Below are positions 5,711 to 8,255 of a DNA stretch of 33,561 nt, one piece after another. Made by a program: the position numbers and the translations under genes. The notes under the pieces were generated by a model, which was given only the letters and a program-made list of their open reading frames with translations, did not search any database and was not told the origin of the DNA. The stretch's first letter is position 1. Each line of letters opens with the position of its first letter. Source of the stretch: Myxococcales bacterium (lineage in GTDB: Bacteria > Myxococcota_A > Polyangia > Polyangiales > Houyiibacteriaceae); contig JAHEEE010000042.1 in the NCBI GenBank assembly GCA_024640845.1, positions 1 to 33,561 of the forward strand, given 5' to 3'.

Positions 5711-5770
5711 TCAACGCGTTTGCTAGCGCTTGTGCAGCGCCCACGCAACGCCTGTGCTAGAGCGAGCGCC

Positions 5771-7468
5771 GTGCTGACGTGTCTCCGCGTCCGGAGCTTC
5801 GCGATCATCGAAGCGCTCGAAGTCGAGCTCGACGCTGGACTGAACATCGTCACGGGCGAGACCGGCGCTGGGAAGTCGATTCTCGTCGATGCGCTCCAAC
5901 TGGTACTCGGAGCTCGGGGGCGACCTGAGGTGGTCCGAACGGACGCCGAGACCGCTGAAGTAGAGGCGCTCTTCGACCTGAGCCGAGACCCCGAAACGCT
6001 CGCTGCTCTGCGCGACCAAGGGATCGAAACCGAGGGCGAGCTGTTGGTCCGCCGCGTCGTGAGCGCGACGGGGCGGACGCGGGCCTACATCAACGGACGC
6101 CTCGCGACACTCGCACAGCTCAGGGAGGTGACCAAGGGCCTGGCAGACATCTCGTCGCAGCACGAATACCACTCGCTCGCCGACGCGCGGCATCATCTGA
6201 CCTATCTCGATGCGTTCGCAAAGCATGGGCCGCTCCTCGCGGAGGCGGAGAAGGCCTACGAGATGCTGGTCGACAAGGCGGCACGGCTCGAAGAGGTCGT
6301 GACCGAGGAGCGCGGGCGCATCGACCGCGAAGATCTCCTTCGTTATCAGGTGAACGAAATCGATTCGCTGCGAGAGGCCCTCGAGCACGAGGATGAGCTC
6401 CTGGTCGAACGCGAGCGGCTTCGACACGCCGAGAAGCTCGGAACCGCGGCAGGAGAAGCCGAAGCCCAACTCTACGCCGACGATGACTCCATTTGCGGGG
6501 CGCTGTCTCGTATCGCCGCGTCGGTGGAGGACGCATCGGAGCTCGACCGGAGCCTCGAGCCGACGGCGACGCAGGTTCGCGAGGCCCTCATACAGCTCGA
6601 GGATGCCGCGTCGGAGCTCGGGCGGTATGCGCGAGATCTGTCGTACGACCCGGCCCGGCTATCCGTGCTCGAAGACCAGCTCGATCGCTTGGTACGGATC
6701 AAGAAGAAGTACGGCGACACGAGTCGAGAGATTCTCGCTCATCGCGACCAGGCTTCTGCGGAGCTCGAGTCGCTCGAGCGATACGAAGAAAGGCTCGATC
6801 GCTGCCAGCGCGAGTACGACGACGCGCTCGAATACGCGGGCGGCGTTGCCAAAAGGCTACGCGAGAAACGGCAGTCGGCTGCAGTCGAGCTCAGCAGGGC
6901 GATCAGCAAAGAGCTGTCTTCGCTCGGCATGGGGGAAGCCAAGGTCACCGTCGAGCTCGCCTCCCTCGAGGGCGGTCCGCGCGAGCTTCAAGTCGCCGGA
7001 GCGCGCCTTTCTGCGACCGGCATCGATCGCGCCGAGCTGCTGATCGCCCCGAACCGCGGGGAAGAGGCCAAGCCCCTCCGCAAAATCGCGAGCGGCGGGG
7101 AGCTTTCGCGAGCGATGCTCGCCATCAAGCGCGTCCTCGCAGGCCTCGGTCCGGCCAGCCTCTACGTTTTCGACGAAGTCGACGCCGGAGTCGGCGGCGC
7201 GGTCGCCGAAGTGATCGGCCGCAAGATCCACGAGGTCGCCAAGCACAGCCAGGTCTTGTGCATTACCCACCTTCCACAAATCTCCGCCTACGCCGACGCT
7301 CACTACCGAGTGCACAAAGAGGTCGTCGGCGAGAGAACGAGAAGCGACATCCGATTGCTGTCCGACAAGGAACGCCTGGAAGAGATCGCGAGAATGCTGG
7401 GCGGAGTCACCGTGACCGCCCAAGCCCGCGCAGCAGCCAAAGCCCTAATCCAAAGCGCCACCACCTAG
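5771..7468 (+). CDS. recN: DNA repair protein RecN
   Basis: RecN is an SMC-like ATPase recruited to double-strand breaks with RecA. The 565-residue product has the normal family length. It has the opening strand (LRVRSFAIIEALEVEL), Walker A GETGAGKS at 29-36, a Q-loop region with DISSQHEYHSL, and a long coiled coil (about 200-370). The C-terminal ATPase half has the signature KIASGGELSRAMLAIKRVL, Walker B LYVFDEVDAGVGG and the switch CITHLPQISAYAD. GTG at 5771 is chosen because family similarity begins there; the frame is open further upstream only as antisense of alaS. The stop TAG shares its last two bases with a palindromic element (7467-7610), so the element abuts the gene. Confidence 0.96.
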   Translation: MLTCLRVRSFAIIEALEVELDAGLNIVTGETGAGKSILVDALQLVLGARGRPEVVRTDAETAEVEALFDLSRDPETLAALRDQGIETEGELLVRRVVSATGRTRAYINGRLATLAQLREVTKGLADISSQHEYHSLADARHHLTYLDAFAKHGPLLAEAEKAYEMLVDKAARLEEVVTEERGRIDREDLLRYQVNEIDSLREALEHEDELLVERERLRHAEKLGTAAGEAEAQLYADDDSICGALSRIAASVEDASELDRSLEPTATQVREALIQLEDAASELGRYARDLSYDPARLSVLEDQLDRLVRIKKKYGDTSREILAHRDQASAELESLERYEERLDRCQREYDDALEYAGGVAKRLREKRQSAAVELSRAISKELSSLGMGEAKVTVELASLEGGPRELQVAGARLSATGIDRAELLIAPNRGEEAKPLRKIASGGELSRAMLAIKRVLAGLGPASLYVFDEVDAGVGGAVAEVIGRKIHEVAKHSQVLCITHLPQISAYADAHYRVHKEVVGERTRSDIRLLSDKERLEEIARMLGGVTVTAQARAAAKALIQSATT

Positions 7469-7610
7469 GGGACAGGCTCCGGGTCTCCAACTACCCGGAA
7501 CCAAAGCATTCCTCAGCGAAAGATCGCAGCGCCCCCAATGATGAGCCTTGCGATCTTTGCCTGAGGAACCGTGTGAAGTCGGTGACTTACAGACCCGGAG
7601 CCTGTCCCCT
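7467..7610. repeat. Nested palindromic (REPIN/MITE-like) element between recN and DUF4442 gene
   Basis: The outer arms are a perfect 20-bp inverted repeat: AGGGGACAGGCTCCGGGTCT at 7467-7486 and its exact complement at 7591-7610. Inside is a second pair matching 18 of 20 (7509-7528, TTCCTCAGCGAAAGATCGCA, and 7549-7568). The 144-bp unit has no coding capacity. Palindrome-in-palindrome organisation and the GGGGACAGG terminus recall small non-autonomous elements mobilised by IS200-like / REP-associated tyrosine transposases; this comparison is from memory. One end overlaps the recN stop. The other supplies the last seven codons of the opposing DUF4442 gene. It may also act as a bidirectional terminator. 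Confidence 0.75.
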
Positions 7611-8114
7611 CTTGGGGCCTACTAGCGTCCTTAGCATTCCGTTCACGACGATTTCGCCGCTCTCGTCTTTCAGCGTCACCGGGACGTCGTATTCGTTTCT
7701 TGCGCTCGACTCGATTGGGGGGATGCGACACTCGCCGGTGATCGTTCCACGGGCCTTCTTGACGTAGTCGAGGCTCATCCCGGCGACGATGAAGCGAGCG
7801 TCGTCGGGAAGTGAGTAGGCCAGCGCGACGTTCCCAGTGAGCTCGACCAGATTGGCAAGCGCGACCGCGTGGACACAGGAAAGATGGTTCCGCACCGCCT
7901 TCCGATCGGCAAGCGTGACCTTCGCGTACCCATCGCCGAGCTCGCGAACCACCGCGCCGATGGTCGCCGTATAGGGAGCAAGGCGGCCGATCATGCGGCT
8001 GAAGATGTAGTTCCCGCCCGGGATTCTTTGCAATCCGTCCCAAGCCGTGCGAACGACGTTGGTCTTGGTTTCGGTGGTGATCGCCTCGGCGCGAAAAAAC
8101 GTGGTCAAGGCCAT
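7587..8114 (-). CDS. DUF4442 family hotdog-fold protein (putative acyl-CoA thioesterase-like)
   Basis: The 175-residue protein resembles the DUF4442 branch of hotdog thioesterases: long N-terminal helix, RMIGRLAPYTATIGAVVRELGDGYAKVTLADRKAVRNH split over residues 43-80, then HAVALANLVELTGNVALAY (the hot-dog helix) and VAGMSLDYVKKARGTITGEC. The likely substrate is an acyl-CoA or related thioester, and the neighbouring acyl-CoA dehydrogenases fit lipid metabolism. ATG at 8114 is chosen over GTG at 8117. The C-terminus is odd: residues RGQAPGL are encoded by the outer arm of the palindromic element, and the TAA falls just inside it, so the original tail has probably been replaced. Confidence 0.8.
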   Translation of the reverse strand: MALTTFFRAEAITTETKTNVVRTAWDGLQRIPGGNYIFSRMIGRLAPYTATIGAVVRELGDGYAKVTLADRKAVRNHLSCVHAVALANLVELTGNVALAYSLPDDARFIVAGMSLDYVKKARGTITGECRIPPIESSARNEYDVPVTLKDESGEIVVNGMLRTLVGPKRGQAPGL

Positions 8115-8255
8115 CACGGAAAACTACCGCAATCGCCGTCGGCGGCCAACAGGCGTTCGTGCCGTGGGTCCATGCATAAACCTTCGGGAACCGCGACCGT
8201 AACGAACGGCCTCGGGCGTCGTAAGACCCAGTACAACCTCTCCTTCATTTCATCC

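Follow-up and report, generated by a model that had tools for sequence, protein, structure and literature searches.

The DNA analyzed here (33,561 nucleotides of a Myxococcales bacterium; contig JAHEEE010000042.1, positions 1 to 33,561), referred to below as the window, contains two convergent genes, recN and a DUF4442 gene, whose ends meet in a long palindrome. This locus raises the question of what the palindrome is and how it came to occupy the 3′ ends of both genes. We conclude that it is very probably a TIR dimer, i.e. a non-autonomous miniature of the resident TIRtron, whose cognate transposase (TIRYT) is encoded once, between the same arms, and that the whole family is probably a small mobile element. 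The observations that lead to this conclusion are the copy number, the shared arms, the transposase gene flanked by them, an insertion between recN and DUF4442 that the relatives examined do not share, and the placement of the copies on stop codons.

The palindrome is an inverted repeat of 144 bp, composed of two 62-nt arms and a 20-nt loop (Table 1). An inverted-repeat search of the window found it as the single repeat in this region, with arms that are 76% complementary. The sequence bears out the preliminary description of a nested palindrome between convergent genes: the outer 20 bp (7467–7486 and 7591–7610) are perfect, the inner 20-mers are matched at 18/20 positions, the A and G of the recN TAG lie inside the element, and so do the last codons and the stop of the DUF4442 gene. 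Within the window, exact matches to the outer motif GGGGACAGGCTCCG are confined to the two ends of the palindrome, and further copies occur elsewhere in the genome. The predicted RNA fold has an energy of −85.1 kcal/mol (z −8.67; equalled by 0/200 shuffles), and folding as DNA gave a z of −7.84 against shuffles. A chance palindrome was ruled out by the shuffles and by the genome copy number.

Table 1. Features of the recN–DUF4442 junction (positions in the window)
Feature	Position	Strand	Basis
Probable TIR-dimer element (non-autonomous palindrome), whole	7467..7610	.	inverted repeat; one of 13 full-length genome copies
Left arm; GGGGACAG (GGGGWSAS) foot at 7468-7475	7467..7528	+	sequence, inverted repeat, arm alignment
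Inverted right arm, with its GGGGACAG foot at 7609-7602	7549..7610	-	sequence, inverted repeat, arm alignment
Inner core of left arm (AAAGATCGCAGCG)	7519..7531	+	arm positions 51-63, conserved across 86 copies
Inner core of right arm (AAAGATCGCAAGG in the window copy)	7546..7558	-	arm positions 51-63
recN stop TAG, last two bases inside the element	7466..7468	+	sequence; same recN end in G007, G011 and G015
Last seven codons of DUF4442 (RGQAPGL) and TAA, written by the element	7587..7610	-	sequence (read from 7610 down to 7587); orthologue tails differ
recN (start approximate)	5744..7468	+	TIGR00634, 514.5 bits
DUF4442 (hotdog-type) gene	7587..8117	-	PF14539, 119.6 bits

When the element was used as a blastn query against its own genome, 41 matches were obtained on many contigs. 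An alignment of 17 full-length copies was then converted into a covariance model, with which 37 genomes were scanned. The model identified 13 full-length copies and two weak ones in the own genome (29 rows, both strands counted), i.e. the palindrome is multi-copy there and not unique. Family matches were present in 19/19 genomes of the genus and in 1/18 others (G020 alone). Named relatives of the DUF4442 protein place the host among uncultured myxobacteria. Genomes that carry a TIRYT of either type are richer in matches (10 genomes with 9–36 rows vs 9 with 1–28; one-sided p 0.002), yet in G002, an 80% complete genome, a TIRYT was not detected despite 28 match rows. Eight of the 13 own copies share both flanks with copies in other species, and many occupied sites are common to up to 7 species, which suggests that present movement is rare or confined to few copies.

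A profile search revealed a single PF01797 (Y1_Tnp, IS200-like) gene in the own genome (44.8 bits). This gene has an arm of the window-palindrome family on each side, one left and one right, and together they form an 818-bp element located where an mglA-like gene meets leuS (we assigned both names from the protein sequence). The same arrangement was found in G001, G004, G005, G007, G013 (where an N gap cuts it), G015 and G017. The element is 796–846 bp long in the 6 genomes in which both ends are readable, and its 63-nt arms stand on both sides in 6 genomes, with an arm–arm identity of 0.65–0.79. HVH and YxxLNPV are invariant among 6 aligned transposase proteins, in keeping with the HUH motif and a putative catalytic tyrosine of a Y1 transposase. 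The presence of a transposase gene between the same arms strongly suggests that the window element is the non-autonomous form of this parent, with a loop where the parent has its gene. Of all 13 genome copies, the window copy is the sole one with GGGACAGG at both feet, as has the resident TIRtron. A second TIRYT type, with the ends GGGACACGCTATA, was observed at another locus in G010, G005 and G012 (L074, L084 and L085).

RAYT-like genes with long flanking TIRs that share GGGGWSAS, the TIR families occurring singly or as dimers, have been described (PMC3733652); the same consensus is repeated for TIRYT repeats in PMC6006769, where TIRYTs mostly fall in subclass 2.1. The present family agrees with these TIRtrons in having a Y1/HUH gene, long GGGGWSAS inverted repeats and many dimer copies: the window copy has GGGGACAG at either end, GGGACA is almost invariant over 172 arms, and the full-length copies of the own genome are dispersed as dimers. 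It differs in its occurrence in Myxococcota, in its 62-bp arms, in which an inner core is conserved as a second block, in the location of its copies on stop codons, and in a transposase-matched motif change (see below) that is absent from the TIR descriptions in the available parts of those papers. It adds a well-resolved TIRYT family for Myxococcota; within a single genus one can see the autonomous parent alongside its miniature copies, sites with and without an insertion, and turnover from species to species. The linked IS200-like/REP tyrosine transposase that had been anticipated from the palindrome is present as an arm-flanked IS200-like gene; judged by the GTAG and arm-fold tests described below, its type is TIRYT and not REP.

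The recN–DUF4442 site itself was compared among the relatives. In G009 it is an empty 20-bp gap, recN ending with TAG and DUF4442 with LVGPKEI. In G015 (L209) a GGGGACTGTCCCC palindrome starts at the recN stop, as do a GGGGTCAGACCCC palindrome in G007 (L212) and a variant of the latter in G011 (L211). The site being empty or differently filled, the window insertion is private among the genomes examined. In the 11 other genus members that have the gene, the C-terminus of the DUF4442 protein is LVGPK plus 2–3 residues; as the preliminary description had supposed, these orthologous tails are shorter, and QAPGL occurs in none of the 11. Since G005 has RG after LVGPK, the addition is best counted as QAPGL alone, and in annotation this tail should not be taken as conserved protein sequence. 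The window retains neither the spacer nor the former DUF4442 stop, which indicates that a deletion accompanied or followed the insertion. The DUF4442 tails, the 13 copies and the arm-flanked transposase gene support the earlier view of a non-autonomous mobile palindrome.

The short GGGGWCWGWCCCC palindromes of the same genus resemble the window element in that they begin with GGGGWSAS and start at the recN stop (G007, G011, G015), but they are 19-bp perfect palindromes lying in A/T runs and reach up to 155 copies (G013), with 1 in the own genome. Of the second repeat family, AAAGGGGWCWGWCCCCTTT, G013 has 155 copies, G007 108, G011 91, G016 81 and the own genome a single one; a search of open-licence literature, a weak negative, gave no mention of GGGGTCAGACCCC. 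A Y1 transposase gene in G012 (L066, contig C95) is bracketed on both sides by AAAAGGGGACAGTCCCCTTTT-like palindromes and is perhaps, judging from this arrangement, the transposase of the short-palindrome family. Simple repeats of the CAGTGGCAGTG, CAGCGG and CAGTGC types were seen soon past the DUF4442 stop in G004, G002, G012, G010 and G016 (L213, L214, L216, L217 and L219).

These features would fit the following sequence of events. Two 62-bp terminal inverted repeats of the TIRtron, joined by a short loop, would form the TIR dimer. Recognition by the TIRYT may involve both the GGGGWSAS foot and the inner core AAAGATCGCAGCG; by analogy with other Y1 enzymes, the substrate would probably be a single strand in the form of a long hairpin. 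The enzyme would then cut at the foot and move or re-copy the element. In the window, a spacer of approx. 20–30 bp would have been lost with the insertion or after it, a loss that a simple IS200-type insertion does not explain; recN would still end at its TAG, and DUF4442 would have gained a new TAA and a tail lengthened by QAPGL. For the host, the insertion at this site is probably close to neutral.

The location at gene ends is a general property of the family. The 86 copies analyzed occupy 35 convergent, 39 tandem and 11 divergent junctions and 1 contig edge, compared with 47 convergent, 102 tandem and 24 divergent element-free pairs in the same loci (genes in these counts were called by a simple codon-usage caller and not taken from annotation). 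Of 110 neighbouring gene 3′ ends, 67 fall within −2 to +6 nt of a foot, another 37 extend into the element and 6 lie farther away, so that stops touch or overlap copies in 104/110 cases. Element-touching stops are TAG in 52/67 cases vs 42/136 in other genes of the same loci, and stops inside the element are TAA in 22/37 vs 15/136, which gives statistical backing to the earlier proposal that the palindrome provides stop codons. Among tandem copies at least 20 nt from the next start, 33/34 touch or overlap the upstream stop, and among the non-overlapped of these, 23 are touching vs 2.3 expected from uniform insertion. Per-copy counts are not independent; collapsed to 22 site clusters, they give a similar picture (of 33 ends, 19 touch the element, 10 extend into it and 4 lie farther off).

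A fixed insertion target could not be derived, though the bases preceding the foot favour [TA]AG. Several copies (L204, L223, L227, L231, L239 and L247) stop just short of a TTGACC-like sequence resembling a −35 box, and from these edge sequences the elements may abut promoters too. The elements reshape gene ends by new stop codons and altered C-termini. Rickettsia palindromic elements likewise add codons to host proteins, but they are inserted in frame inside ORFs, whereas the present copies terminate ORFs. Rickettsia palindromic elements are mentioned in PMC3733652.

The element itself belongs to a known TIRYT kind; what is new is the apparent concerted change of motifs at fixed sites. At sites shared between species, foot position 8 is G in 15/16 own arms and T in 68/68 others, and the other arm positions at these sites carry a same-site signal (0.529 vs 0.470; 0/2000 shuffles). 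The arms of the TIRtrons follow the same division, with T at foot position 8 in the readable T-foot genomes and G in G000, although most G000 feet agree with the G000 TIRYT at position 8 only, not at 7 and 9.

The most clear-cut case is that of G015. Its leuS fragment is 88.8% identical to that of G007 and 86.5% to that of G017, and groups with both at 98/97; the sequences flanking its copies share 87.2% identity with those in G007. Nevertheless, at least 7 G015 sites that are occupied in other species too carry the foot and core of the G015 TIRYT, not the motifs of the relatives. Its 22 arms, from 11 copies, have the foot GG[ACT] in 19/22 cases and C after GATC in the core in 16/22, compared with the foot CTC in 129/136 arms and the core base G in 136/136 arms of eight T-foot genomes. 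The foot/core pairs are GGGACACTCTCC/GATCGCA (G007 type) and GGGACAGGATCC/GATCCCA (G015 type), and the G015 copy motifs resemble the arms of its own TIRtron; one G015 copy (L194) retains the T type. The G015 TIRYT has a long branch, and its placement in a clade with G007 and G017 was rejected only at p 0.0445; its sequence may reflect a swap or fast divergence. Outside the motifs, the G015 arms show weak same-site similarity (0.53 vs 0.477; 4/5000 permutations), with next to none at 3 of the 7 sites (L300, L304 and L305), so that either overwriting or re-insertion would fit.

We tentatively propose, at somewhat below even odds, that copies long fixed in place have their recognition motifs rewritten in situ, or are re-inserted, when the resident TIRYT changes. 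If true, this would amount either to motif conversion guided by the transposase or to selection that acts on the sites of a transposase that has been domesticated. In the available portions of the open-licence TIR, REP and REPIN literature (a weak negative), no description of in-place conversion or of such selection was found. Equally weak negatives were obtained in open-licence literature for concerted evolution of repetitive extragenic palindromic sequences with a transposase and for a REP-associated tyrosine transposase in Myxococc-, and for MITEs in Myxococc- a single paper, on Thiomargarita, was found. The genus provides a natural experiment on the co-evolution of a tyrosine transposase with its dispersed substrates: in one host the transposase diverged, and its motifs are found in the copies at shared sites.

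The same pattern has to be weighed against the idea that the copies are not mobile DNA at all, but binding sites of a domesticated TIRYT, or of another host protein, selected at fixed sites. Such sites might well be common to up to 7 species, have a foot and core that follow the resident TIRYT, and contain conserved blocks spaced by approx. 11 bp, as the copies do. The private nature of the window site and the loss of most copies in genomes without a TIRYT argue against this idea, and we consider it unlikely. As regards the blocks, alignment of the 86 copies revealed conservation at arm positions 1–12 (the foot), 21–22, 29–35, 42–45 and 51–63 (the inner core), and within positions 13–51 the conserved blocks recur approximately every 11 bp; the permutation test of this spacing assumes independent positions and overstates its significance. 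Such a spacing might reflect recognition of double-stranded DNA from one side of the helix.

The preliminary description had also suggested bidirectional termination, and an RNA structure, a terminator or another one, that the host maintains at convergent gene pairs would account for the strong hairpin, the placement at gene 3′ ends and the share of copies in convergent junctions (35/86 vs 47/173 element-free pairs); moreover, the A/T-flanked short palindromes of the relatives at the recN site resemble bidirectional terminators. This suggestion was not borne out. No T-tract accompanies the element (scan of 7300–7800), the tandem and divergent junctions hold 39/86 and 11 copies, respectively, and the motifs track the transposase type. 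Furthermore, the two arms of a copy agree no better with each other (0.681) than arms swapped within a genome (0.690; 979/1000 permutations at or above the observed agreement), so it is the motifs that are kept and not pairing as such. Although RNAalifold reported 34 pairs, 8 of them with double changes, this apparent covariation vanished on permuting arms within genomes, and structured RNA was rejected as a candidate; the one strong double change, at foot position 8, follows the genome and its TIRYT and not the individual hairpin. A retained terminator or other structured RNA is very improbable.

The probable TIR dimer shares with REPIN/RAYT systems (PMC3116915) a non-autonomous inverted pair, a long hairpin and a single RAYT-like gene, but differs from what is described there in lacking GTAG, in arms that are not self-palindromic, and in about a dozen copies per genome instead of hundreds. 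GTAG precedes only 8/172 ends; the 172 arms do not fold singly (mean z −0.13, 11 under −2), whereas whole elements fold strongly (40 tested, mean z −6.8), and the GTAG-based definition of REPs and REPINs therefore does not describe this family. That the palindrome is a GTAG-type REP doublet mobilized by a true RAYT is the least credible reading, despite the intergenic dispersal and the top NCBIfam match of the transposase (NF047646, REP_Tyr_transpos), which at 55.4 bits is below the cut-off of 80, and given that the feet carry the TIRYT motif GGGGWSAS; a search for solved structures related to the TIRYT gave none at E 0.001.

One divergent junction deserves separate description. In 12/19 genomes a single copy (L287–L298) makes up the whole interval separating the start codons of a divergent gene pair, whose members we called aminotransferase-like and ACT-domain-like from sequence. 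Its outer parts are recognizable in 12/12 genomes, and in G004, G005 and G007 it keeps the G foot, while nearly all other copies there have T. Both of its arms have an intact inner core in 5/5 genomes with the cognate TIRYT and in 0/7 without it (Fisher 0.0013, by a criterion of intactness chosen after the sequences were seen). This pattern is the one expected from host use of the outer parts combined with a requirement of the transposase for the core; judged from its position, this copy has apparently become the promoter region of both genes.
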